Source: an uncultured Colwellia sp.
GTDB lineage: Bacteria; Pseudomonadota; Gammaproteobacteria; Enterobacterales; Alteromonadaceae
Direction of reading: 5' to 3'
Length of the DNA: 41,922 bases
Assembly: GCA_913061475.1 (NCBI GenBank)
Contig: CAJXUN010000039.1
Location: forward strand, 1 to 41,922
Shown: one piece after another, positions 13,561 through 39,510 of the stretch
How the letters are laid out: each line of letters starts with the position of its first letter
Position numbering within the stretch: position 1 is the first letter of the stretch
Made by a program: the position numbers and the translations under genes
The notes under the pieces: model-generated
The model's database searches: none
Seen by the model: only the letters and a program-made list of their open reading frames with translations
What the model was told of the DNA's origin: nothing

Positions 13561-14871
13561 ATGTTTAGTTATTATTTACGACTGGCTTGGATAAGCATTC
13601 TAAGGCATTGGGGCTTGAGCCTATTAATGGTCTGTGCTATCGGCCTGGGTATTGGCGCCGCCATGACCACCGTTACCGTGAACTATTTGATGTCAGCGGA
13701 CCCTATTCCCGAAAAAAGTCAGCAATTATACTATGTTCAACTCGACAGCTGGGATGTTAACGATCCATTTGATGACGGTTTAAATCCGCCCGATCAGCTA
13801 ACATTTACCGATTCAAGCAACTTAATGCGGGCTAAAAAAGCCTTTAGACAAAACGTTCAAGCACAAGCTTTTGGCGTAATTGAACCTAATGATCCCGAAA
13901 TGCTGCCACTAATTGTTAATGGCAGAGCCAATTCAGCCGATTTTTTTCCTATGTTCAACGTGCCTTTTATCTACGGCAGTGGTTGGTCAAATGAAAGCGA
14001 TGAAAGCAAAGAGTTTGTTGTCGTCCTCAGTAAAGAAACCAATGACAAGCTTTTTGGCGGCGAAAACTCGGTAGGTAAAGCAATTAAACTTGAAGGTAAT
14101 ATGTTCCGTGTAGTCGGCGTTATTGACACCTGGCAACCTAAACCTCGATTCTACGATATTAGCACCGGCGCATTTAACGACTCTGAAGATATTTTTGTGC
14201 CCTTTCATTTAATTGCTGACGAAAAAATATCTCGTTCAGGCAATACCAATTGTTGGAAACCCAGCGGTGATGGCTTTAAAGCCTTTTTAGCGTCTGAATG
14301 TATTTGGACGCAGTTTTGGGTGGAATTAAAAACCGAACAAGATAAAGCCGATTATCAACAGTTTCTCAATGCCTATGTGCAGGAGCAAAAGCAGTTCGGC
14401 CGTTTCCAACGCCCACTTGATAACCGCTTAAGTAATGTTATGCAATGGTTAGAGTCTCAAGAAGTGGTTGCTGATGACGCGCAAATGATGATGGCGATGT
14501 CATTTATGTTTCTTATTGTTTGCTTACTCAATACGGTTGGTTTATTACTGGCCAAATTTTTAGGTAAAGCCCCTGAAATTGGTTTAAGACAAGCCCTAGG
14601 TGCGAGTAAAAGCACCTTATTTAGCCAGTACATTATTGAGTCGGCATGCATAGGCATATTAGGTGGCGTGCTGGGTTTAATACTCGCTTACCTTGGTTTA
14701 AAAGGCGTTGAAGGTCTTTATGGTGATTACATGAAAGGCTTAGCAAGTTTAGACGCTAACATGGCGATATTCGCCGTACTACTAGCGCTTATTTCAACCA
14801 TACTCGCTGGCTTATACCCGACGTGGCGCGCTTGTAATATTCAGCCCGCTCAACAACTTAAAAACCAATAA
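13561..14871 (+). CDS. ABC exporter permease 1 (MacB_PCD plus FtsX domains)
   Basis: A 436-residue permease with one N-terminal TM helix (about 17-40). A large periplasmic MacB_PCD-type domain follows. Three C-terminal TM helices of the FtsX fold (about 315-335, 365-390, 400-422) contain the family stretch EIGLRQALGASKSTLFSQYIIE. The periplasmic domain has a pair of Cys (TNCWKPSG and ASECIWTQ) that could form a disulfide. AAGGAAAC stands just before the ATG. It pairs with the next gene as a heterodimer, unlike MacB, which is a fused homodimer. Confidence 0.87.
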   Translation: MFSYYLRLAWISILRHWGLSLLMVCAIGLGIGAAMTTVTVNYLMSADPIPEKSQQLYYVQLDSWDVNDPFDDGLNPPDQLTFTDSSNLMRAKKAFRQNVQAQAFGVIEPNDPEMLPLIVNGRANSADFFPMFNVPFIYGSGWSNESDESKEFVVVLSKETNDKLFGGENSVGKAIKLEGNMFRVVGVIDTWQPKPRFYDISTGAFNDSEDIFVPFHLIADEKISRSGNTNCWKPSGDGFKAFLASECIWTQFWVELKTEQDKADYQQFLNAYVQEQKQFGRFQRPLDNRLSNVMQWLESQEVVADDAQMMMAMSFMFLIVCLLNTVGLLLAKFLGKAPEIGLRQALGASKSTLFSQYIIESACIGILGGVLGLILAYLGLKGVEGLYGDYMKGLASLDANMAIFAVLLALISTILAGLYPTWRACNIQPAQQLKNQ

Positions 14872-14898
14872 GCCCAGCAGATAAAGTAGGAAATACTT

Positions 14899-16113
14899 AT
14901 GTTAGAAACAGGATTGATACTGCGTGCATTGGCGCGTAATAAAGTAGGGGCTTTGCTGATAGCGCTGCAAATAGCCTTAACCATGACCATTATGGTCAAC
15001 GCTATTTTTATGATCCAAGATCGCCAGCAACAGATGCAAAGAGACAGTGGCTTAGATGAAGCAAATACTTTTTATTTAACCAATACAGTTTTTGCTCAAG
15101 ACTATAATATACAAGCGCACTTACAAACCGACCTTCATACCATTCGTAACACACCGGGCGTTATTGATGCGGTTCAAATTAATGCCATACCATTAAGCAG
15201 CAGTGGCTGGTCAATGGCTTTACAACACGAATCAGGGGAAGATAAAGATGCAATTGGCTCTGCCATTTACATGGTGGATGAACATGCGATTAACAGTATG
15301 GGATTAGAGTTAATCGCGGGCTCTAACTTTAGCCAGGCCGATATTGAATTACGTAAAGATGGACAATCAACTTGGCCGGCAAAAACTATTATTACCAAGG
15401 CTTTCGCTGAAAACTTGTATCCTGATGACTGGCAATCTGCGATTGGTAAAACGGTCTATATTTCACAAACTCAACCCATGCAAATTATTGGCGTGATAAA
15501 AGCATTACAAGCACCGTGGAATGGTTGGGATGGTGTTGAACGCAGTATGCTAGTGCCTTTCCAACGAGAATCTAAAGGCAGTTATTACTTTATTCGCACA
15601 GAGGCGGGTCGTCGTGATGAGTTAATGCCTATTATTGAAAAAGTTTTAGCAGAAAGTGATAAACAGCGCATCATTCGTCGTGTAACCACGGTTGAAGATA
15701 CTAGACTGCGCAGCTACCGACAACATAACGCCACTAACAAAATTTTATCCACTGTGATAATAACATTAACCCTGATCACTGGCTTTGGCATCGTTGGCTT
15801 GGCTATTTTCAGTATTAATCGTCGTACCAAGCAAATTGGCACACGGCGCGCACTTGGCGCAACGAAAGGGCAAATTATGCGTTATTTTATGATGGAGAAT
15901 TTTATTATTTCAGCCTTTGGTAATATGATTGGCTGCCTAGGCGCTGTCGCACTTAATATGTGGCTAGTGCATACCTTTAGCTTATCGCCTATCAGTTTTG
16001 AGCTAATAGCGTTTGGTGTTGTTACCCTCTTTATTGTCGGGCAATTGGCGGTTCTTTATCCGGCTAGAAAAGCCGCGATGATAGCACCAGCAACAGCAAC
16101 TCGTACCATGTAA
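14899..16113 (+). CDS. ABC exporter permease 2 (MacB_PCD plus FtsX domains)
   Basis: A 404-residue permease with the same layout as its neighbour: an N-terminal TM helix (ALLIALQIALTMTIMVNAIF), a periplasmic domain, and three C-terminal TM helices. The FtsX signature is RRTKQIGTRRALGATKGQIMRYFMME (split by family convention around RRALGATKG). The two permeases differ widely in their periplasmic domains, so the complex is probably asymmetric. It is the last gene of the operon; a clear terminator follows at 16297. The transported compound cannot be deduced, though relatives export peptides, lipopeptides or lipoproteins. Confidence 0.87.
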   Translation: MLETGLILRALARNKVGALLIALQIALTMTIMVNAIFMIQDRQQQMQRDSGLDEANTFYLTNTVFAQDYNIQAHLQTDLHTIRNTPGVIDAVQINAIPLSSSGWSMALQHESGEDKDAIGSAIYMVDEHAINSMGLELIAGSNFSQADIELRKDGQSTWPAKTIITKAFAENLYPDDWQSAIGKTVYISQTQPMQIIGVIKALQAPWNGWDGVERSMLVPFQRESKGSYYFIRTEAGRRDELMPIIEKVLAESDKQRIIRRVTTVEDTRLRSYRQHNATNKILSTVIITLTLITGFGIVGLAIFSINRRTKQIGTRRALGATKGQIMRYFMMENFIISAFGNMIGCLGAVALNMWLVHTFSLSPISFELIAFGVVTLFIVGQLAVLYPARKAAMIAPATATRTM

Positions 16114-27517: not shown

Positions 27518-27553
27518 CAGTCACGATAAAAAGGCACTTAAGCTGAGCATTTT

Positions 27554-27634
27554 ATGAATCAAACATGTACTAAATTTAAATCATCAGGAGCAATATTTGC
27601 CAGCGCATTAGGCTGCAAATGGACCTTGATCTGA
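27554..27634 (+). CDS. Possible 26-residue leader peptide with a Trp codon
   Basis: ATG at 27554 opens a 26-codon frame ending TGA: MNQTCTKFKSSG..., finishing GCKWTLI. A GAG triplet six bases upstream is the only ribosome-binding hint. Its interest is the Trp codon four codons before the stop, ahead of tryptophan-catabolism genes. It may be a chance ORF. Confidence 0.22.
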   Translation: MNQTCTKFKSSGAIFASALGCKWTLI

Positions 27635-27653
27635 CCCTCCCCTGCCTCGATGT

Positions 27654-27674
27654 AAACTTAGATGCTAAGTTTTT
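27654..27674 (+). terminator. Weak terminator-like hairpin after the aldehyde dehydrogenase gene
   Basis: AAACTTAG (27654-27661), loop ATG, CTAAGTTT (27665-27672), with five T at 27670-27674. The stem is AT-rich with a tight loop, so termination would be partial. Confidence 0.4.
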
Positions 27675-27791
27675 CGCGATTAAACTGTTTTAGCCGACAA
27701 AGTGACTAACCTTAAGGCTAACAGCCCCCGTTTAGCGTTAAAAGTTAACCAGCGAAAAAAAACAAATAACTAAAACAAAAAAACACTTTAA

Positions 27792-28244
27792 ATGGATAAC
27801 ATTATGTCAGAATTTTTTAATGCCGATCAGGCCCCTAAACCGGTAGGTTTATACCCACACGCACGACAAGTGGGTAATTTATTATTCTTATCAGGTGTTG
27901 GCCCACGTCAAGCCGGCAGCTCAGATATTCCGGGAGTTGAACTCGATGCTGAGGGTGAAATCATCCACTATGACATCGAAGCACAGTGTCACAGCGTTTT
28001 TCAAAATGTCAGTACCATATTAGCTTCAGCTGGCGCTGATTGGATGGACTTGGTTGATGTCACTGTGTTCCTCACCAATATGAAAGATGACTTTGCCACC
28101 TACAACCGTATTTACGCCGAGTATTTTGCTGAAAATATGCCTTGTCGCACGACGGTTGAAGTTAATAAATTGCCAACACCCATTGCGATTGAATTAAAAT
28201 GCATCGCAGCCCTTCCAGAGAAATCGGCTAAACAAGGAGCATAA
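27792..28244 (+). CDS. 2-aminomuconate deaminase (RidA/YjgF fold)
   Basis: A 150-residue RidA-superfamily protein. The body carries family features: KPVGLYPHARQVGNLLFLSGVGP, a QCHSVFQNVSTILASAGADWMDL helix region, VTVFLTNMKDDFATYN, and MPCRTTVEVNKLPTPIAIELKCIAAL with the conserved Arg. RidA-fold 2-aminomuconate deaminases (AmnD/NbaF) convert 2-aminomuconate to 4-oxalocrotonate (2-hydroxymuconate keto form) plus ammonia. The position directly before the 3-hydroxyanthranilate dioxygenase gene, with the semialdehyde dehydrogenase upstream, supports this specific role over general RidA imine hydrolysis. The next gene starts three bases after its stop. Confidence 0.85.
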   Translation: MDNIMSEFFNADQAPKPVGLYPHARQVGNLLFLSGVGPRQAGSSDIPGVELDAEGEIIHYDIEAQCHSVFQNVSTILASAGADWMDLVDVTVFLTNMKDDFATYNRIYAEYFAENMPCRTTVEVNKLPTPIAIELKCIAALPEKSAKQGA

Positions 28245-28247
28245 ATC

Positions 28248-28796
28248 ATGGCAAAATTTTCCATGCCCTTTAACTTGCAACAATGGATTGATGAACATCG
28301 CGAGCTTTTAAAACCGCCGGTGTGCAACAAACAAATATTTCAGCAAGACGATTATATTGTCATGGTGGTTGGTGGGCCAAATAATCGTCGCGACTATCAT
28401 TACAACGAAACCCCTGAGTTATTCTATCAACTTGAAGGTGAAATGGTGCTCAGTGTAGTCAACGAAGAATATGCTAGCGAGCCTGAAAATAACCAAGCAC
28501 CAACCTTTAGTGATATCGCGATTAAAGCCGGCGAAATATTTTTACTACCGCCAAAAGTACTGCACTCTCCGCAACGTTTTGAGAATAGTGTCGGCCTTGT
28601 CGTTGAACAAAAACGGGATCATGGCCAAAAAGACGCACTTTTTTGGTTTTGTCAGCAATGCAAAAACCCGCTATACACCGAACAGTTTTGCTTAGAGAAC
28701 ATCGAAACTGACTTGCCAAAAGTGTTCAATAACTTTTATAACGATAATGCCAACTGCCAATGTAAAAAGTGTGGTTTTACCGCAGATAAAACTTAG
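28248..28796 (+). CDS. nbaC: 3-hydroxyanthranilate 3,4-dioxygenase
   Basis: A 182-residue cupin that opens the ring of 3-hydroxyanthranilate to 2-amino-3-carboxymuconate semialdehyde. Iron ligands His51, Glu57 and His106 are in [15 protein letters not shown] and [13 protein letters not shown]. The C-terminus carries the bacterial rubredoxin-like second metal site, with CxxC at 135/138 and 172/175. Length and motifs match the bacterial enzyme. AAGGAGC stands before the ATG, and the ACMSD gene follows after six bases. Confidence 0.96.
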
Positions 28797-30764: not shown

Positions 30765-32096
30765 ATGAGCAACGACATTAATTCAACACCACATACTGAT
30801 ATGAACACTGAAATAAGCACTGAGACAAATATGTTTTCTTTAGCTTACGCGCAAAATTTAGATCAAAACGATCCACTTGCCGCCATGCGTGAGCACTTTT
30901 CGATCCCTAAACAAGCGGATGGCTCCAATGAATACTATTTCACTGGCAACTCGTTAGGCTTACAACCAAAACTGGCTCGCGCCGCAGTTATTGAACTGCT
31001 TGATGCTTGGCAAGCACGCGGCGTAAAAGGCCATTTTGAAGGCGAATTTCCTTGGCTGCCTTACCATGAGTTTTTAACTGAACAAGCGGCTGAAATCGTC
31101 GGCGCTTTGCCAAAAGAAGTGGTGATGATGAATTCACTCACCGCCAACTTACATTTTATGATGGCCAGTTTTTATCAACCAACGACCAAGCGCTCGAAAA
31201 TATTAATTGAGCACCATGCCTTTCCCTCAGATCATTATGCGGTGGAGTCGCAATTAAAACATCACGGTAAAAGTGTCGACGACAATTTACTATTATGGAC
31301 ACCAAGAGCAGATGAAGAGTTACTAAACTATCAAGATCTTTGGCAATTGATCGAGCAACATGGTGATGAAATTGCCTTAATATTATTACCTGGCGTTCAA
31401 TATTATACTGGCCAAGTACTCGACATGCAGCGCATTACCGAAGTTGCGCATGCTAGGGGCATTAAAGTTGGCTTCGACCTTGCGCATGCCGCTGGCAATA
31501 TAGAATTATCGTTGCACCAATGGCAAGTCGACTTTGCTTGTTGGTGTAGCTATAAATACCTTAACAGCGGTGCCGGCTCTGTCGCCGGCTGTTTTGTTCA
31601 CCAAAAACATGTTGAAAATACCGAACTTAATCGCTTTGCCGGTTGGTGGGGACACGACAAATCGAGTCGCTTTAAAATGGAAAATACCTTTAAGCCCATC
31701 CCTAGTGCAGAAGGTTGGCAATTATCCAATCCGCCAGTGCTTTCACTTGCTGCTGTACGCGGATCGTTTGACACCATTAGTATTGCCGGAGGCATGCCTG
31801 CACTGCGCAAAAAATCTTTGTTATTAACCGATTACATGATGAGATTAATCAAAACTGAGCTTGGCAACAAAATTCGTATTATCACCCCACAAGCGCCAAC
31901 AGAACGTGGCTGCCAATTATCATTAATGGTTAACGTCGACGGACTTGACGGCAAAGCTATGTTTAATGCCTTAGAAAAAAATGGCGTAACCACCGATTGG
32001 CGCGAGCCTAATGTTATTCGAGTTGCGCCAGTACCTTTATACAATAATTTTCAAGATGTTTATCATTTTGTCAGAATATTAAAGGAGTGCCTGTAA
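30765..32096 (+). CDS. kynU: Kynureninase
   Basis: A 443-residue fold-type I PLP enzyme that cleaves 3-hydroxykynurenine to 3-hydroxyanthranilate and alanine. Schiff-base Lys264 is in CWCSYKYLNSG, and the PLP-binding Asp near 238 is in KVGFDLAHAAGN. Other family stretches are EYYFTGNSLGL, FPWLPYHEF, LIEHHAFPSDHYA and FAGWWGHD. The first 22 residues are a Ser/Thr-rich tail without homology that I recognise, so an internal ATG at about residue 13 or 23 could be the real start. The stop codon overlaps the start of kmo (TAATG). Confidence 0.96.
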   Translation: MSNDINSTPHTDMNTEISTETNMFSLAYAQNLDQNDPLAAMREHFSIPKQADGSNEYYFTGNSLGLQPKLARAAVIELLDAWQARGVKGHFEGEFPWLPYHEFLTEQAAEIVGALPKEVVMMNSLTANLHFMMASFYQPTTKRSKILIEHHAFPSDHYAVESQLKHHGKSVDDNLLLWTPRADEELLNYQDLWQLIEQHGDEIALILLPGVQYYTGQVLDMQRITEVAHARGIKVGFDLAHAAGNIELSLHQWQVDFACWCSYKYLNSGAGSVAGCFVHQKHVENTELNRFAGWWGHDKSSRFKMENTFKPIPSAEGWQLSNPPVLSLAAVRGSFDTISIAGGMPALRKKSLLLTDYMMRLIKTELGNKIRIITPQAPTERGCQLSLMVNVDGLDGKAMFNALEKNGVTTDWREPNVIRVAPVPLYNNFQDVYHFVRILKECL

Positions 32097-33505
32097 TGTC
32101 GCCTAGAGAAAAAATAACTATTGCCGGCGCAGGGCCTGTTGGCACCTTGCTAGCCGTTATTTTAGCCAGACATGGTCATCGTATTAACTTGTTTGAATCG
32201 CGCCCTGACTCACGGGTAAAAAGCATTTACCAAGGTAAATCCATTAACATTGCCCTGTCAGACAGGGGTTGGTTGGCGTTAGCATCGGTCGGTCTCGAGC
32301 AACAGGTAAAACAGCAAGCCATTGCCATGCATAAACGTGTCATGCACGCTATTGACGGCAGCATTACCGAACAAGCATATGGCACACAAGAGCAGGCGAT
32401 TTGGTCAGTTTCTCGTGCCGGCATTAACGAACAATTACTCGACTTAGCGGAGCAAGAGCCATTAATCGCAATCAAATTTGACCAGCGCTTAGTCGACGTT
32501 GATTTTGACAGCGCCAGTGCAGACTTTATGCACGAGCATACTATTGAAAAAGTATCCGCCGATATTTTATTTGGTGCCGATGGCGCGTATTCAAAAGTGC
32601 GGCGCTTAGCGCAAGAAACACCGCGCTTTAGTTACAGTCAAGCATATATGCCACAAAGCTATATTGAACTGCACATTCCAGCCAATGAAGATGGTTCATT
32701 TAAAATGGCCAAAGACGCTCTGCATATCTGGCCGCGTAAAAAGTTCATGCTGATCGCCCTGCCTAATCCTGATGGTTCATTTACCTGTACGTTATTTCTC
32801 GACTTTCAAGGTGATGTGTCATTTTCATCACTCACTCAGCGTACTGACGTTGAACAGTTTTTCCAAACTAATTTTGCCGATGCCATGGCATTACTGGAGA
32901 ATCCTGTTGATGAATTTCTCGCTAAAACCGCCAACCCACTGTTTCTGCTCAAGGTTGATCCTTGGGTGATCAATGACAAAGTCGCCCTAATTGGCGATGC
33001 TGCTCACGCTATGGTGCCATTTTATGGTCAAGGTATGAACTGCGGTTTTGAAGACTGTCGAGAACTAGGTGAATTGATTACGTTACATAAGCACGATTGG
33101 TCAAAAATATTTCCCGGCTACCAAGCGGCGAGAAAAATAAATGCCGACGCTATCACAGAATTAGCCAAGCGTAACTTTGTTGAAATGAGTGAGCTTTCAG
33201 GGCAAGCCAAATTCTTATTACAAAAGCAGATCGAAGCCGAGTTTCACAAACGCCACCCGACACTTTGGACTCCGTTGTACTCTATGGTGACTTTTTCGCC
33301 AAACCTGCCCTATTCACAAGCCTTAGCTATTGGTGATATCCAACAAAAAATTATGCAGGAAATTATGCAAATCTCCAATATTGAAAACTGTTGGCAAGAA
33401 GACTTCGTTTATGAAAAATTACAAGAATTAGCACAAGTATCTGTTAGCGCTAATCACAGTCATTACACTACTGATAGCAAAACGGGGGAGCAAAAAAATG
33501 ACTAA
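32096..33505 (+). CDS. kmo: Kynurenine 3-monooxygenase
   Basis: About 469 residues from ATG 32096, chosen because AAAGGAG (32081-32087) sits eight bases upstream and the ATG overlaps the kynU stop. A GTG at 32087 would lie within that ribosome-binding site. It is an FAD-dependent aromatic hydroxylase, with ITIAGAGPVGTLLAVILARHG at the N-terminus, LFGADGAYSKVRR in the middle, and the FAD motif ALIGDAAHAMVPFYGQGMNCGFED near residue 300-320. It makes 3-hydroxykynurenine. The KMO-specific start (SIYQGKSINIALSDRG) and a hydrophobic-poor C-terminal tail fit bacterial KMO. It overlaps kynA by eight bases. Confidence 0.96.
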   Translation: MSPREKITIAGAGPVGTLLAVILARHGHRINLFESRPDSRVKSIYQGKSINIALSDRGWLALASVGLEQQVKQQAIAMHKRVMHAIDGSITEQAYGTQEQAIWSVSRAGINEQLLDLAEQEPLIAIKFDQRLVDVDFDSASADFMHEHTIEKVSADILFGADGAYSKVRRLAQETPRFSYSQAYMPQSYIELHIPANEDGSFKMAKDALHIWPRKKFMLIALPNPDGSFTCTLFLDFQGDVSFSSLTQRTDVEQFFQTNFADAMALLENPVDEFLAKTANPLFLLKVDPWVINDKVALIGDAAHAMVPFYGQGMNCGFEDCRELGELITLHKHDWSKIFPGYQAARKINADAITELAKRNFVEMSELSGQAKFLLQKQIEAEFHKRHPTLWTPLYSMVTFSPNLPYSQALAIGDIQQKIMQEIMQISNIENCWQEDFVYEKLQELAQVSVSANHSHYTTDSKTGEQKND

Positions 33506-34445
33506 AGCCAACGACAGTAAAGCTAAGTCGCCAAAGTTTGATTCAACAAATACCACTGACAATCAAGGCAATACAACTGGCTGCCCTTTTCATCAACAAG
33601 CACCGAATGTTGATGAAAACTTTCGAACGCTAGAGCAAGGTATTCACCAGGATTTCAATAATGAAATGTCTTATGGTGATTACTTGCAACTAGGGCAAAT
33701 ATTATCAGCACAGAAGCCGTTAAGCGGTGAACATGATGAAATGCTCTTTATTATTATTCATCAAACCAGTGAATTATGGCTAAAGCTAGCCGGCCACGAG
33801 TTGCAAAGTGCAATAGCTTACATTAAGGCTGAAGATTTTGGCCCTGCATTTAAAGTTATTGCCCGGGTAAAACAAATATTTATGCAATTGACACAGTCTT
33901 GGAATATTTTGTCTACCCTTACACCTAGTGATTACCTAAAGTTTCGTGATGACTTAGGTCGCTCCTCTGGTTTTCAGTCATGTGGCTATAGAAAACTGGA
34001 GTTTTTACTTGGCAATAAAAATGCCGAAATGCTTAAAGTTCACCAAGCAAACAGCACAGCCTACCAAGAATTAGATACGCTACTAAAACAAAATAGCTTA
34101 TATGATGAAGTGATTATTGCCTTAGCAAAAGCGGGTTTTGACATTTCTTTTGACGTCAAAGAGCGTGATGTTACACAGCCCTATCAACGTAATGACAGCG
34201 TATTAACTGCTTGGCTTAATGTCTATCAACAGCCAGAAACCTATTTTGAACTCTATGAGTTAGCGGAAAAATTAGTCGACATAGAAGATGCTTTCCAGCA
34301 ATGGCGCTTCAAGCATATGTATACCGTACAACGCATCATAGGTTATAAAAAAGGTACCGGTGGTTCGTCTGGTGTTGGTTTTTTGAAAAAGGCATTGGAT
34401 GTCAGCTTTTTTCCAGAACTTTTTGAAGTACGAACGCATTTATAA
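33498..34445 (+). CDS. kynA: Tryptophan 2,3-dioxygenase
   Basis: A 315-residue heme enzyme that oxidises L-tryptophan to N-formylkynurenine, the entry step of the pathway. The TDO signatures are MSYGDYLQLGQIL, FIIIHQTSELWLKLAGHEL (substrate-pocket His), FRDDLGRSSGFQSCGYRKLEF and FQQWRFKHMYTVQRIIGYKKGTGG (heme-proximal His; GTGGSSG loop). The first 35 residues are a low-complexity Asn/Lys/Thr tail ahead of the catalytic domain. GGGGGAG lies just upstream of the ATG. It is the last gene of the cluster although it acts first. Confidence 0.97.
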   Translation: MTKANDSKAKSPKFDSTNTTDNQGNTTGCPFHQQAPNVDENFRTLEQGIHQDFNNEMSYGDYLQLGQILSAQKPLSGEHDEMLFIIIHQTSELWLKLAGHELQSAIAYIKAEDFGPAFKVIARVKQIFMQLTQSWNILSTLTPSDYLKFRDDLGRSSGFQSCGYRKLEFLLGNKNAEMLKVHQANSTAYQELDTLLKQNSLYDEVIIALAKAGFDISFDVKERDVTQPYQRNDSVLTAWLNVYQQPETYFELYELAEKLVDIEDAFQQWRFKHMYTVQRIIGYKKGTGGSSGVGFLKKALDVSFFPELFEVRTHL

Positions 34446-34477: not shown

Positions 34478-34870
34478 TCAATGCTCTAAAACAAAGAGTA
34501 ATTCTGCTAGATCAGGTTGCCATTGAAAAGTTTTTAGTTTGATACGTGCGCCAATAACCACGACTTGTTCATCTTGCAGCAAGTCTCGTTGGCGCTGAAA
34601 GTTTTCTGTGTCTGGGGCAAATGAAATTTTTCCCTGAGAATTAACCACTCGATACCAAGGCACCGCTTGCCCACACCAGCCGGTTTTTGGCACAGCAGCT
34701 AACGCTTTCCCCACTAAGCGGGCGCGTCCAGGTAAGCCGGCAAGATCGGCAATTTGACCATAGCAGGCGACTTTCCCCAACGGAATAGCCTGCACAGTTT
34801 GCCAAATTTTTACATGTTTATTATTAACTGGCTTAGCGGTGCTTGACACAATATTGCTAATTATTACCAA
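34478..34870 (-). CDS. Alkyltransferase-like protein (ATL, MGMT fold without the active Cys)
   Basis: A 130-residue protein of the O6-alkylguanine-DNA alkyltransferase C-terminal fold. It has GKVACYGQIADLAGLPGRARLVG (helix-turn-helix region with the arginine finger). The alkyl-acceptor motif PCHRV is PWYRVV, with Trp72 replacing Cys. ATL proteins such as E. coli YbaZ bind O6-alkylguanine lesions and flag them for nucleotide excision repair rather than repairing them directly. Its start overlaps the end of the SDR gene by seven bases, so the pair is co-transcribed. It converges on kynA. Confidence 0.9.
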   Translation of the reverse strand: MVIISNIVSSTAKPVNNKHVKIWQTVQAIPLGKVACYGQIADLAGLPGRARLVGKALAAVPKTGWCGQAVPWYRVVNSQGKISFAPDTENFQRQRDLLQDEQVVVIGARIKLKTFQWQPDLAELLFVLEH

Positions 34871-35532
34871 GGTAATATACTGCCATTGGAGTGTTTAAAA
34901 ACGCCACTTTCAGCTAAGGTCAGTTGATTAATTAATTGCACTAACTTATTGGCTGAATCGTTGGCACTGATATCTCCGCCATAATTAACCATATCGGTTT
35001 GCACATAACCCGGGTGATAGATCCCCACCGCAACATCTCTGCTCGCAAGATCATGACTTAACGACATGGCCGCAGCATTCAACGCCGCTTTTGACATTCG
35101 ATAACCATAACGACCGCCTGAAGTATTGTCAGCTATAGAGCCCATTCTTGAGGTGATAAGTGCTACTTTCGCCCCGAGCGTCAATTGTTTTTGTAAGCGT
35201 TCAACAACTCTCAATGGTGCTAAGGCATTGACTTCAAATTGAGCACGTATAGTGCTGATATCTAAAGCATCTAGGCTTTCATCCCGTAAGATACCGGCGT
35301 TACAAACCAGTACATCAATGTCAATATGGCTTAATGCTGAGACCATAGCGCGAATACCAAAGTCAGTTGCGACATCGATATTCTCAATGATGTTTACATC
35401 AAGTGCTGCTAGCTCAGCAGAAGACTTTCGACATAAGGCAAAAACTCGATCTCCTTGTGCTTTAAACTCTGCGCATAGCGCTAAACCAATACCACGATTG
35501 GCGCCGGTAATTACAATATTATTACTCATCAA
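34864..35532 (-). CDS. SDR-family oxidoreductase
   Basis: A 222-residue short-chain dehydrogenase/reductase with all standard motifs: TGANRGIG near the N-terminus, CNAG (LVCNAGILRD), the active-site Ser in LITSRMGSIAD, and the Tyr/Lys pair in YGYRMSKAALN. It resembles the small C-factor/sniffer-like SDRs (short C-terminus, VGIYHPGYVQTDM). The substrate is unknown. It is transcribed with the ATL gene. Confidence 0.9.
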   Translation of the reverse strand: MMSNNIVITGANRGIGLALCAEFKAQGDRVFALCRKSSAELAALDVNIIENIDVATDFGIRAMVSALSHIDIDVLVCNAGILRDESLDALDISTIRAQFEVNALAPLRVVERLQKQLTLGAKVALITSRMGSIADNTSGGRYGYRMSKAALNAAAMSLSHDLASRDVAVGIYHPGYVQTDMVNYGGDISANDSANKLVQLINQLTLAESGVFKHSNGSILPW

Positions 35533-35577: not shown

Positions 35578-35607
35578 AAAAAACCACTTCAAGTGAAGTG
35601 GTTTTTA
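35578..35607. terminator. Bidirectional-looking terminator, mainly for the Cys-rich repeat protein gene
   Basis: ACCACTTC (35583-35590), loop AAGT and GAAGTGGT (35595-35602) form a perfect stem, with A-run on the left and TTTTT on the right. It ends the minus-strand message of the Cys-rich protein gene 42 bases past its stop and insulates the SDR gene. Confidence 0.88.
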
Positions 35608-35648
35608 TATACTCTCAAGCAACAAAGCTTAATTGTTATGTGTTGGCC

Positions 35649-36077
35649 TTATTCGCCACACTTACCTTCAGTTGCTTTTTTAGCTTTACCTTCGCCACAT
35701 TTACCTTCACCACACTTACCTTTGGCTTTAGCTTTCATTTTGCTTTCACCACATTTACCTTCGCCACATTTACCTTTGGCTTTAGCTTTCATTTTGCTTT
35801 CACCACATTTACCTTCGCCACACTTACCTTTGGCTTCAGCTTTCATTTTACTTTCGCCACACTTGCCTTCACCACACTTACCTTTGGCTTTAGCTTTACC
35901 TTCACCACATTTGCCTTCACCACACTTGCCTTTCTCATGGTCGTCAGCAGCAACTACGGTCATAACATTTTGTGCAGCAAATGGGTTAGTTTCTGCCTTT
36001 ACTGGCATTGTTGCCGCAACAGTTAATGCAAATAAGCCTAATAAAGCTGCAATTGAAGATTTTTTAATTAATTTCAT
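35649..36077 (-). CDS. Secreted Cys-rich repeat protein, HvfA-like RiPP metallophore precursor candidate
   Basis: A 142-residue low-complexity protein. A signal peptide (SIAALLGLFALTVAATMPVKA, residues 8-28) is followed by ETNPFAAQN and a short acidic linker. From residue 50 on it is made of GKCGEGKCGE units joined by Lys/Ala/Met spacers. There are eleven Cys, each in KCG; six are in EGKCG. NPF plus EGKCG repeats match what I know of HvfA-type precursors, whose EGKCG cysteines become copper-binding oxazolone/thioamide groups through HvfB (MNIO, DUF692) and HvfC. Neither partner gene is in the window. AAGGAAAA stands seven bases before the ATG. Whether it is modified in trans or works as an unmodified thiol-rich metal buffer is open. 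Confidence 0.8.
   Translation of the reverse strand: MKLIKKSSIAALLGLFALTVAATMPVKAETNPFAAQNVMTVVAADDHEKGKCGEGKCGEGKAKAKGKCGEGKCGESKMKAEAKGKCGEGKCGESKMKAKAKGKCGEGKCGESKMKAKAKGKCGEGKCGEGKAKKATEGKCGE
35721..35882 (-). repeat. Three 54-bp in-frame tandem repeats in the Cys-rich protein gene
   Basis: Three 18-codon copies (residues 66-83, 84-101, 102-119) read GKCGEGKCGESKMKAKAK, with one Ala-to-Glu change in the first. They are flanked by shorter variants (residues 50-65 and 120-142). Codon differences between copies are few, which suggests recent duplication. Confidence 0.92.
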
Positions 36078-36398
36078 ACTGTTTTCCTTTTAATTTTTCA
36101 ATTTGACACTACATCTATAAGTATAGCTATTTACAAAGACCATACAGGGTGTAAATAAATTTCAAACGCTGTAAATTTTTATACATCATTTTAAAGCCAT
36201 TCTATTCATTTACCTATATCAGCCTAGCTTTATCACCATAAAACCTCAAGTAAAAAAATTTTCACTATTTTCCGTCCGGTGTTGTTGCCCATAAGGTTAA
36301 TCGTTTTCATTATTTGCCGATAGAACAATAACTTGTTAACATCTTTGTAACATAACATTTCAATAACTTAACTAATGAATAAAACAGGGAATTTAATA
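36078..36398. promoter_or_regulatory. Divergent regulatory region between the Cys-rich protein gene and the S9 peptidase gene
   Basis: On the minus strand a TATACT -10 box (36125-36120) would start transcription near 36113 with only a weak -35 (CCTGTA). Just upstream lies an inverted repeat ATTTACA-N14-TGTAAAT (36129-36135 and 36150-36156), and a third TGTAAAT at 36170-36176, 20 bases from the second. This looks like an activator or repressor site. I see no clear promoter for the peptidase side. Confidence 0.45.
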
Positions 36399-38324
36399 AT
36401 GAAAGCGTTGTATTTTGCTCTCGTATTACTGCTAAGTAGCGTTTCAGCAAATGCTGGAGATTGGGAACATTTATTTCAAAATCCAAAATATCAAGCAGTA
36501 AAAATATCTCCAGACGGCAAGCATCTTGCTGTAGCAATGGATTCAGATGGTAAGCGCGCACTAATTTTTATCGAACGCAAGACAATGAAAATGGTTGGCG
36601 CGACTAAATTACCGGGCAAAAATGAAGTTGGTAGTTATTATTGGGCTAATAACGAGCGTGTAGTTATTGAAATTAATCAAAGTCAACCATGGTCGGAACA
36701 GCTGGGTTTTTATGGCGAACTATTTGCGGTTAACTTTGACGGCAGTGCTAGCGAGCTTATTTATGGGTATCGTAACGTCGATAGAGATTTAGGTCATCGC
36801 CTTAAAAAGAAAAAGAAAATAGATGGTTGGGCCGAAATCATTGATATGCTACCTGATGATGAAAAGCATATTTTAATTAGTTCAACCCCATGGGGCAGCA
36901 CAATTTCAGGACTACATAAACTTAATATTTATAATGGTAAAACCAAGAAATTAGTTATCGGTGCACCTGTACCTTATGCAACTTATATCACTGATGAACA
37001 TGGTGAAGTTAAAGCCCTAACGGGTATTAATGATCAAGATCGTGTAGCAGTATATGTACGTAAGGGTGATGAATGGCAACAATTGCCAACAGAAAAGCAT
37101 GGTTCTAAATTTAGAGCACTCGTAGTTGACAACTCAGGTGAAAATTTATTTGTTTTAGATAACTTTAAACAAGATAAAACGGGACTGTTTAAATTAAACT
37201 TACAAAGTGGAGAGATGACCCCTATTATCTCGGATGATAAAGGTGATATTACTCGGGTAAAATTAACCAGTGATGAAAAAAACATTTACTCAGTCGGCAC
37301 ATATAATGGTTTTCCTAATTATTATTTAATTAATCCAGAGCTAACAGAAAGCCAAGTTTTTAAACAATTAGTCGCAACGTTTCCAGACCAATCTATTGAT
37401 ATTACAAGCCGCACGGAAAATGGCGATATATATATTGTTCGGGTATCTTCTGATATTGAAGCTGGACGCTTTTTCATATACGACCATGCTAATAATAAGC
37501 TATCAAGTTTATTCAAATACTATCCAGAAATTGATGCTAAGCAGCTAGCTTACACAGACCCTTTTGAATTTACTTCTTCTGATGGTTTAACTATCAGTGG
37601 TTATATTACTCAAGCAAAAAAACAGATTAAGGGCGAAATACCGCCATTAGTTGTTTTGGTTCACGGTGGACCACATGCGCGTGACTATTGGCGATATTCG
37701 GAAAAAGTGCAGTATCTTGCTTTAAATGGCTATTCAGTGCTACAAGTCAATTTTCGCGGTTCAACCGGTTACGGCGCAAGTTTTGAAGCTGCTGGTTTCA
37801 AAAACTGGGGCACCTTAATACAACAAGATATTTATGAGGCTTATCAGTGGGCTATTAGCGCAGGTCTTGCTGCTAAAGATAAAGCTTGTATCATGGGGGC
37901 AAGTTTTGGGGGCTATTCAGCCATACAAAGTGCTATTAAATATCCAAAATCGTACCGCTGTGCAATCGCCTATGCTGGTGTTTATGATCTAAATTTAATG
38001 CTCGATGAAGGTAATATTAAAAACCTTCGCTTTGGTAAGTCTTACTTAAATAAAACATTAGGCAGCGATGACGTCTTCCGTGCAACTATGTCGCCGGTAC
38101 ATCATGTGGAAAACATCGAAATACCGCTAATGATTGCTCACGGTGAGCAAGATACCCAAGTACCTTTTGAGCATGCGGTGCGATTAAGAGCGTCACTAGA
38201 CAAAGCAAACAAACCTTACACTTGGTATAAGTTCAGCACCGAAACTCATGGTTTTTATAATCCTGAAAACCAAACTAAATATATGAAAGATGTGTTGAAT
38301 TTTTTAAATCAAAATATGTTGTAA
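36399..38324 (+). CDS. Exported S9-family peptidase (prolyl oligopeptidase / acylaminoacyl-peptidase type)
   Basis: About 641 residues from ATG 36399, preferred because AGGGA (36386-36390) lies eight bases upstream and the signal peptide MKALYFALVLLLSSVSANA starts there; ATG 36375 is also in frame. The N-terminal half is a beta-propeller-like region (YQAVKISPDGKHLAVAMDSDGKR). The C-terminal alpha/beta hydrolase has LVVLVHGGPHARD, the nucleophile Ser in MGASFGGYSAIQSA, Asp in AHGEQDTQVPFEHA, and His in ETHGFYNPENQ. It should cleave oligopeptides in the periplasm. This group is expanded in marine Alteromonadales. A terminator follows. Confidence 0.93.
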   Translation: MKALYFALVLLLSSVSANAGDWEHLFQNPKYQAVKISPDGKHLAVAMDSDGKRALIFIERKTMKMVGATKLPGKNEVGSYYWANNERVVIEINQSQPWSEQLGFYGELFAVNFDGSASELIYGYRNVDRDLGHRLKKKKKIDGWAEIIDMLPDDEKHILISSTPWGSTISGLHKLNIYNGKTKKLVIGAPVPYATYITDEHGEVKALTGINDQDRVAVYVRKGDEWQQLPTEKHGSKFRALVVDNSGENLFVLDNFKQDKTGLFKLNLQSGEMTPIISDDKGDITRVKLTSDEKNIYSVGTYNGFPNYYLINPELTESQVFKQLVATFPDQSIDITSRTENGDIYIVRVSSDIEAGRFFIYDHANNKLSSLFKYYPEIDAKQLAYTDPFEFTSSDGLTISGYITQAKKQIKGEIPPLVVLVHGGPHARDYWRYSEKVQYLALNGYSVLQVNFRGSTGYGASFEAAGFKNWGTLIQQDIYEAYQWAISAGLAAKDKACIMGASFGGYSAIQSAIKYPKSYRCAIAYAGVYDLNLMLDEGNIKNLRFGKSYLNKTLGSDDVFRATMSPVHHVENIEIPLMIAHGEQDTQVPFEHAVRLRASLDKANKPYTWYKFSTETHGFYNPENQTKYMKDVLNFLNQNML

Positions 38325-38544: not shown

Positions 38545-39510
38545 ATGCATACTTTAGTAAAACCCCAAGTAAAAAAAATAATTTTGGCACCTATGGAAGG
38601 TGTAGCTGACGAGTTAATGCGCCAGTTACTCACCTCATTAAACAGCTACGACTTTTGTATTACCGAGTTTGTTCGTATTGTTGATGCCTTATTGCCTAAG
38701 CATGTTTTTCAACGGATGTGCCCTGAGCTTGATAATGGCTGCCGAACCCAAAGTGGCACTCCGCTGCGCATGCAGCTACTTGGACAAGAGCCGAAATGGA
38801 TGGCAGAAAATGCGGTTAGAGCACTTGAGATGGGGTCACACGGTATAGATATTAACTTTGGCTGCCCGGCAAAAGCGGTCAATAAGAGTAAAGGTGGTGC
38901 GGTACTATTAAACGAACCCGAAAAAATTTATCAAATATTGGCTAGCATCAGAGCGGCAATTGGTGAAAATGCTATTTTATCGGCAAAAATTAGGCTGGGC
39001 TTTAACGACGCCTCCAAGTTAGATGAAATTGTTAGTGCTGTGGTGTCGGCAAATACGAATCAATTAACTATTCATGCTCGCACAAAACAAGATGGTTACC
39101 GCCCACCAGCCTATTGGCATTTCATTGCTGAAGTGAAAAAAAAATATGACATTGAAATATTTGCCAATGGTGAAATATGGAATAAAGCAGATGCAGACAA
39201 CTGTATTACACAAAGCCAAACTTCAAACTTAATGCTAGGTCGCGGTGCACTCGCCACACCTAATTTAGCCAATGTAATTAAATTAAGTGAAGCGCCTATG
39301 CCTTGGCGTGAGTTAAGCTCACTGTTAAAGTACTATAGTGATTTAGAATTACAAGGCGATAAAAGCTACTATTTTTCAAGCCGTTTAAAACAATGGCTAC
39401 GTTATTTAAAGTTACAATATCCACAGGCTGAGACACTTTTTAATGCTATTAAGGTATTAAAAAATAAAGATCAGATCCTCCATCAAATCGACTTAATCGC
39501 CAATACCTAA
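38545..39510 (+). CDS. dusC: DusC, tRNA-dihydrouridine(16) synthase
   Basis: A 321-residue FMN enzyme that reduces U16 of tRNA to dihydrouridine. The start ILAPMEGVADELMRQLL is the Dus signature; YDFCITEFVRI, GSHGIDINFGCPAKAVNKSKGGAVLL (FMN site and catalytic Cys region), LTIHARTKQDGYRPPAYW and LMLGRGALATPNL follow. The DusC-specific GYRPPAYWHFIAE and the length separate it from DusA and DusB. It is a single-gene unit, with 220 bases upstream and 165 downstream. Confidence 0.94.
   Translation: MHTLVKPQVKKIILAPMEGVADELMRQLLTSLNSYDFCITEFVRIVDALLPKHVFQRMCPELDNGCRTQSGTPLRMQLLGQEPKWMAENAVRALEMGSHGIDINFGCPAKAVNKSKGGAVLLNEPEKIYQILASIRAAIGENAILSAKIRLGFNDASKLDEIVSAVVSANTNQLTIHARTKQDGYRPPAYWHFIAEVKKKYDIEIFANGEIWNKADADNCITQSQTSNLMLGRGALATPNLANVIKLSEAPMPWRELSSLLKYYSDLELQGDKSYYFSSRLKQWLRYLKLQYPQAETLFNAIKVLKNKDQILHQIDLIANT

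Follow-up and report, generated by a model that had tools for sequence, protein, structure and literature searches.

An hvfA-type KCG-repeat gene standing without hvfB and hvfC in Colwellia and its relatives, and its probable role as an unmodified periplasmic buffer

We identified, in DNA from an uncultured Colwellia sp., a gene for a probably secreted KCG-repeat protein that appears from its gene neighbourhood to be the positional orthologue of hvfA and that stands without hvfB and hvfC. The gene lies in a stretch of 41,922 nucleotides, hereafter called the window. It is probable that hvfBC, encoding an MNIO (DUF692) enzyme and its DUF2063 partner, was lost in the Colwellia/Thalassotalea lineage and that the retained hvfA works unmodified as a periplasmic thiol/Cu(I) buffer or scavenger. 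We lean slightly towards a fuller account, in which hvfBC was deleted in place, the precursor now serves as an unmodified sacrificial thiol/copper buffer under its ancestral ECF promoter, and the loss of a leader GY together with a change of charge reflects release from the enzyme.

The KCG-repeat protein and its surroundings

Translation of the gene bore out what the first-pass annotation had read from the letters, namely a Sec-like N-terminus (by inspection), an NPF motif and eleven KCG motifs, six of them within EGKCG (Table 1). The other five are KGKCG; all 11 cysteines lie within KCG, and their spacing of 5 residues alternates with one of 11–13. When the mature part was shuffled 20,000 times, no shuffle contained more than seven KCG motifs. 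The kinship with HvfA also held. The protein scored 117.2 bits, over five stretches, against NF050137 (the NCBIfam HvfA-family KCGExKCG repeat domain, cut-off 19.5) and 76 bits against the HvfA equivalog NF050188, under its cut-off of 95. Pfam gave no match up to E 0.1, and the BufA2 and DUF2282 domains were absent from the protein (NCBIfam/Pfam), indicating that it is not a bufferin by domain. A protein search for HvfA paralogues, a check suggested earlier, revealed no second HvfA-like locus in the genome; the other match was a stop-containing frame inside the same stretch.

In an alignment of 24 sequences, A28 of the signal region is invariant and K27 almost invariant. The AlphaFold2 model built from an alignment of this size was disordered (mean pLDDT 42, pTM 0.17), and it placed, at low confidence, a helix at residues 3–23. 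In PMC12452194, another EGKCG protein is modelled as a beta-helix, unlike the disordered model obtained here. One terminator-like hairpin was found 3′ of the gene, against a mean of 0.3 in shuffled sequences. A long antisense ORF (35593–36093, plus strand) was considered as a gene and rejected; because the minus-strand frame has a low dN/dS, the ORF was attributed to the repeat codons themselves.

Table 1 Features at and around the KCG-repeat gene, in window coordinates
Feature	Position	Strand	Basis
Putative hvfA orthologue without enzyme genes, probably secreted KCG-repeat protein, 142 aa	35649..36077	(-)	translation, NCBIfam, repeat dN/dS
Sec-type signal peptide, residues 1-28, likely cut after VKA	35994..36077	(-)	by inspection
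NPF motif, residues 31-33; no GY after NPF here	35979..35987	(-)	invariant, alignment of 24
Repeat region, residues 49-142; five KGKCGEGKCG runs and one EGKCG	35652..35933	(-)	
ECF-type promoter element TGAAATTT-N15-GGTCT, 60 nt 5′ of start codon	36137..36164	(-)	
Intrinsic-terminator-like hairpin, 12-pair stem then T-rich tail	35579..35606	(-)	
SDR-like gene, downstream	34864-35532	(-)	name by inspection
S9-type peptidase gene	36375-38324	(+)	name by inspection
dusC-like gene	38545..39510	(+)	best NCBIfam match DusC, 367 bits, under its 395 cut-off

The gene had been called an orphan, flanked by an SDR gene and a divergent S9 peptidase gene, with no DUF692 or HvfC gene in the window. Its orphan status stands, as neither hvfB nor hvfC adjoins it, and the neighbours lie where they were placed, their names being by inspection. 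No DUF692 or HvfC (DUF2063) gene was found within the window; genome-wide, PF05114 and DUF2063 each matched twice, on contigs C16 and C30. For comparison, 37 relatives were collected with peptide patterns from the window protein, a search that favours its own type; their records are named Colwellia, Cognaticolwellia, Thalassotalea and relatives of these. The SDR gene lies downstream in nine of the 37, all from the Colwellia/Cognaticolwellia branch (L005, L006, L008–L014). A dusC gene is the divergent neighbour of the orphan gene in 22 of them; in the window the S9 peptidase gene intervenes. This peptidase gene occupies the same place in only two relatives (L005 and L012), and since it so rarely adjoins the orphan gene, a functional role for it was judged unlikely. 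Elsewhere in the window (30765–34445), three overlapping genes are kynureninase-, kynurenine monooxygenase- and tryptophan 2,3-dioxygenase-like by inspection.

The hvf site and the distribution of the enzymes

The surroundings of the 37 orphan genes were set against 14-kb stretches at 20 operonic hvf loci, hand-picked after shared neighbours had appeared for some of them among the loci listed. The order KCG-MNIO-DUF2063 is found in 19 of the 20; L275 is the exception in the drawn order, though the MNIO profile search places an MNIO there. Downstream, apt and/or dnaX follow at 18/20 operonic and 16/37 orphan loci; upstream, TPR/tonB or dusC occur at 11/20 and 31/37, respectively. No MNIO or DUF2063 gene was detected within the stretches examined at the 37 orphan loci. 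One pair of loci makes the relation plain: the operonic L285 reads exbB exbB exbD tonB TPR dusC KCG MNIO DUF2063 REC apt dnaX and the orphan L016 reads exbB exbB exbD tonB TPR dusC KCG REC apt dnaX, the two enzyme genes being the only difference in the stretch. The branch to which the window belongs differs: the gene stands elsewhere, with dusC and the SDR gene, and dusC is all of the old site that remains near it.

The comparison of homologues and neighbours, proposed in the first-pass annotation, thus led to the same site as that of operonic hvfA, with the enzymes absent there. Judged by this shared neighbourhood, the window gene is best described as a positional orthologue of hvfA. Because the same site holds hvfA-hvfB-hvfC in other genera and hvfA alone in this lineage, the likeliest course is a loss of hvfBC in place. 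Since KCG and MNIO genes adjoin outside the family as well (e.g. in G218 and G334), loss would be the simpler direction.

The absence of any DUF692 protein from the genome had been named as an outcome that would count against the first reading; the genome-wide search with PF05114 instead recovered two MNIO genes, on contigs C16 and C30, partnered there by the two DUF2063 matches. The C16 cluster (14670–15452, L001) comprises a BufA2 with 13 cysteines (148 bits, cut-off 60), the MNIO, the DUF2063 protein and HvfX/DoxX. The C30 cluster (27544–28398, L002) comprises a DUF2282 precursor (PF10048), the MNIO and the DUF2063 protein; thioredoxin-like and DoxX-like genes were also seen there by inspection. 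Both MNIOs matched best as BufB, at 390 bits (over the cut-off of 310) and 297 bits (under it), and both fell under the HvfB cut-off of 360, at 275 and 181 bits. By these profile scores, a dedicated HvfB appears to be missing from the genome.

The BufBC enzymes encoded elsewhere might modify the orphan precursor in trans, giving thiooxazole copper ligands. Besides the two MNIO-DUF2063 pairs, the close relationship of HvfB and BufB favours such action, as do the bufferin precursors unlinked to MNIO genes that are described in PMC12452194. In G034, a KCG gene with operonic hallmarks (L165) lies ~59 kb from its MNIO, which makes trans action plausible in that genome.

The wider distribution argues against this alternative. 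We surveyed 118 genomes of the family, each at least 90% complete, and found the KCG domain in 88, MNIO in 87 and DUF2063 in 88; 71 carried both KCG and MNIO, 17 KCG without MNIO, 16 MNIO without KCG, and 14 neither. The orphan type of protein thus occurs without a detected MNIO in 17 of 88 sampled genomes, which span ten genera and include seven single-contig assemblies. DUF2063 was found in none of these 17, and a search for MNIO at E up to 10 returned nothing in 15 and sub-cut-off matches in two (E 0.09 and 0.13). None of the 17 had a protein over the NF050188 cut-off, a count limited to the MNIO-free genomes of the family. MNIO was also undetected in 24 of the 37 close relatives, several of these genomes being MAGs of unstated completeness; Thalassotalea loyana and Colwellia polaris are among those with none, whereas Cognaticolwellia aestuarii has two MNIO matches. 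In the 13 MNIO-positive relatives, 18 of 20 MNIO matches adjoin a Cys-rich protein fitting the bufferin pattern, as defined by a regular expression rather than a family search; the remaining two are fragments in one genome, G143. These fragments (L130 and L136, on G143:C63) belong to one interrupted MNIO gene; G143 is a Thalassotalea genome that carries an orphan KCG gene, and MNIO decay is possibly under way there. In G121, the MNIO (L131) adjoins a 207-aa protein with 15 cysteines, unlike the usual 4-, 6- or 12-Cys bufferins.

At the level of the order, KCG proteins were present in 112 of 397 genomes, and MNIO accompanied them in 80 of 82 KCG-positive genomes outside the family and 25 of 30 inside. 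The MNIO-free genomes are related and therefore do not count as independent events; they may reflect one loss. Two genomes of a single genus outside the family (G373 and G443) also have KCG proteins with no MNIO detected, a possible second, independent loss. In the parts of the literature that our search covered, we found no description of EGKCG proteins in MNIO-free genomes; stand-alone precursor genes are described for bufferins and in the Fig. 3 legend of PMC12452194.

The first-pass annotation had offered two choices, a distant HvfBC acting in trans or an unmodified secreted buffer. Because many relatives' genomes show no MNIO, the latter is better supported for the lineage, and a distant HvfBC is unlikely in the MNIO-free relatives. 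For the window's own genome the first choice is conceivable in altered form, with two bufferin-type MNIOs present and the HvfB type absent. Its account of copper-binding groups made by HvfB/HvfC likewise survives in part: the relation to HvfA stands, whereas PMC13419390 and PMC12668002 revise the modification of HvfA, replacing oxazolone/thioamide by 5-thiooxazole.

Sequence hallmarks and selection on the repeats

We compared 55 orphan proteins (from the window, the 37 relatives and the 17 MNIO-free genomes), reduced to 49 by removing duplicates, with 51 operonic proteins, L165 included, that were kept from 58 loci after seven without a KCG ORF had been dropped. From the operonic sequences we derived a leader motif, (L/M)xxGY, located after the signal and before the core. 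It is our own definition from these 51 and not a published criterion; the window protein is without it. GY precedes the first cysteine in 50/51 operonic proteins (the 51st is masked) versus 0/49 orphans (one partly masked). The residue that opens a run of GKCG-type 5-mers differs as sharply: in orphans it is Lys in 186 of 202 runs, Glu in eight and another residue in eight, and in operonic proteins Lys in none of 282, Glu in 276 and Asp in six. An xPF motif is present in 48/49 orphan versus 35/51 operonic proteins. The orphan set contains 499 GKCG cores and no [EK][GA]K[non-C]GE.

Because the 37 relatives came from peptide patterns of the window protein, we recounted on the 11 proteins from MNIO-free genomes that are not identical to any of theirs, and obtained GY in 0/11, with Lys first in 39 of 46 runs and Glu in two. 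Moreover, orphans are alike in genomes with MNIO (13) and without it (24), GY being found in 0/13 and 0/24 and Lys first in 57/57 and 85/94 runs, respectively. The distant KCG gene of G034 keeps GY and the operonic hallmarks. The uniformity of the orphans speaks against bufferin enzymes acting on them in trans, and together with the MNIO-free relatives and the bufferin partners that adjoin most MNIOs it leaves us regarding such action as unlikely.

It had also been proposed that the alternation of KGKCG and EGKCG means that every second cysteine is modified. This idea found no support, as Lys in first position marks the whole orphan lineage and is absent from the operonic set. The loss of GY and the change from Glu to Lys suggest, at the level of sequence comparison, release from the enzyme. 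They are no proof that the protein cannot be modified, because the GKCG core is intact, some orphans keep Glu in first position, and the FonBC enzyme of another species is tolerant: the mutagenesis reported in PMC12668002 shows that FonBC accepts in vitro Ala at every pre-core position, E1A and most position-1 changes, but not a precursor in which both repeats carry Arg at position 1. The strict retention of GKCG in the orphan set could also point to another, unrecognised enzyme that modifies the protein across the lineage. We hold this to be quite improbable, since no conserved enzyme gene of such a kind adjoins the orphan gene; the genes that repeatedly flank it are dusC, TonB-system genes, a receiver-domain gene, apt and dnaX, or the SDR gene with an MGMT-like gene.

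In 11 pairs with relatives, the repeat region gave dN/dS of 0.03–0.14, ratios that are rough because the repeat alignment is ambiguous. Among 119 aligned cysteines in the 11 relatives, 118 are kept and one is lost. The cysteine codons switch between TGT and TGC, and 46 of 48 genes use both. By these measures the repeats appear to be under purifying selection. With the enzymes gone and the number of cysteines ranging from 3 to 19, the gene might be viewed as a decaying, functionless relic. The low dN/dS with retained cysteines, the conservation of the promoter and its spacing, and the persistence of the gene in MNIO-free genomes of ten genera make this highly improbable.

The promoter element, a candidate regulon and known systems

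An upstream alignment of 11 sequences revealed a conserved block 5′ of the KCG gene. From these upstream regions we read off a two-part element, TGAAATTT-N15-GGTC, which we take to be like ECF sigma promoters in form, and then scored it out of 12 with the spacer fixed at 15. A score of at least 10/12 was reached in 45/49 orphans, 41/51 operonic hvfA and 2/596 other ORF upstream regions. Among bufferin-like genes, 7/24 upstream regions scored 10/12 and none reached 11/12 or more; some bufferin genes perhaps belong to the same regulon. A sigma-70 promoter scan upstream of the orphan gene found nothing, and a strict form of the pattern stands ahead of the KCG gene in 6/6 genomes of the genus.

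The pattern TGAAATWW-N15-GGTCT had 98 matches in 40 genomes versus 32 for the reversed control, and therefore about a third of the matches may be due to chance. Non-KCG sites from the scans of the genus and of the 40 genomes were pooled, and representatives of the genes downstream of them were checked by Pfam or NCBIfam. They include AhpC/TSA-type lipoproteins (7 sites, 5 genera), thioredoxin-like proteins (5 sites, 5 genera) and glutathione-reductase-like genes (5 sites, three of them inside the upstream ORF). DUF417 proteins, ECF sigma factors and a protein with no Pfam match, presumably DinB-like, each follow four sites; the DUF417 protein scored far under the RclC equivalog. CutA, DsbD, HvfX/DoxX and an unnamed short ORF follow two sites each, an RpoH-like gene follows three, all in one genus, and 20 genes occur once. 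DsbC and MsrP belong to these single cases, most of the others being without a clear redox role. Element-bearing loci of the AhpC/TSA, thioredoxin-like, DsbD, CutA, MsrP and ECF sigma types include L196, L212, L222, L231, L235, L257 and L264. The ECF sigma gene of G007 has its site partly within what may be a start codon. Collectively, the downstream genes suggest an envelope thiol/methionine redox regulon across the family, as predicted from the TGAAATTT-N15-GGTC element, that would include the hvf operons. Autoregulation of the ECF sigma factor is a tentative proposal drawn from 4/40 genomes.

The element also precedes a TonB receptor gene in five genomes of two genera, four of them from the window's own genus. 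L187, L188, L189 and L191 are TonB-dependent receptor genes with the element, in four genomes of that genus. Together with exbB-exbD-tonB-TPR at the old hvfA site, the receptor sites raise a possible link of the peptide to outer-membrane uptake. In Cupriavidus metallidurans, according to PMC10304878, the gigPABT operon, whose GigB carries a DUF2063 domain, has rpoQ, an ECF gene, as its neighbour; copper and gold induce the operon, control by RpoQ not being demonstrated.

We propose the following course for the unmodified buffer. The MNIO gene hvfB and the DUF2063 gene hvfC would have been lost from the site, with hvfA, its promoter and the Cys repeats kept. An ECF sigma factor would switch on orphan HvfA when needed, along with enzymes of thiol and methionine repair; the protein would be exported by Sec and left with its cysteines unmodified. 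In the periplasm, the paired cysteines in a flexible Lys/Glu-rich chain may buffer thiol/Cu(I) or scavenge oxidants, and co-regulated Dsb/thioredoxin proteins could recharge them. The buffer role is inferred from composition and co-regulation.

The usual view of RiPP precursors is that they work only once modified by their enzymes. Here, nature seems to have removed the enzymes as an experimenter would, with the precursor retained across several genera. The system makes testable what role unmodified Cys repeats have, whether GY and Glu at position 1 serve the enzyme only, and what the family as a whole did ancestrally. The promoter common to both forms links them to what looks like an envelope regulon of thiol/methionine repair, which bears on the physiological role of EGKCG peptides.

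Among known systems, the HvfA/oxazolin precursor of Haemophilus influenzae and the other EGKCG captophorin precursors, FonA, NgoA and MmrA, have paired GKCG and the NF050137 domain in common with the window protein, besides a Sec signal, which the window protein shows by inspection; operonic hvfA of related genera has the same site and promoter element. The orphan differs from HvfA-type precursors in being without GY and without hvfB/hvfC beside it, often with neither enzyme detected in the whole genome, in having mostly Lys in first position and in scoring below the NF050188 cut-off. The bufferins BufA1/BufA2 are Cys-rich precursors too, exported by Sec as is predicted for the orphan; this genome also encodes such precursors, alongside MNIO and DUF2063 genes, but they belong to different sequence families and their genes keep the enzymes here. 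Metallothioneins are small, Cys-rich, unmodified metal/thiol buffers and embody the working principle proposed for orphan HvfA; unlike them, the orphan would be exported and has GKCG spacing, and the likeness is drawn in principle. A functional analogy is offered by MrpX-YedY1 of Azospira suillum, described in PMC5748585, in which a scavenging peptide is placed under a sigma factor (SigF/NrsF) together with a methionine sulfoxide reductase. MrpX is methionine-rich and orphan HvfA Cys-rich; the two are likened by function.
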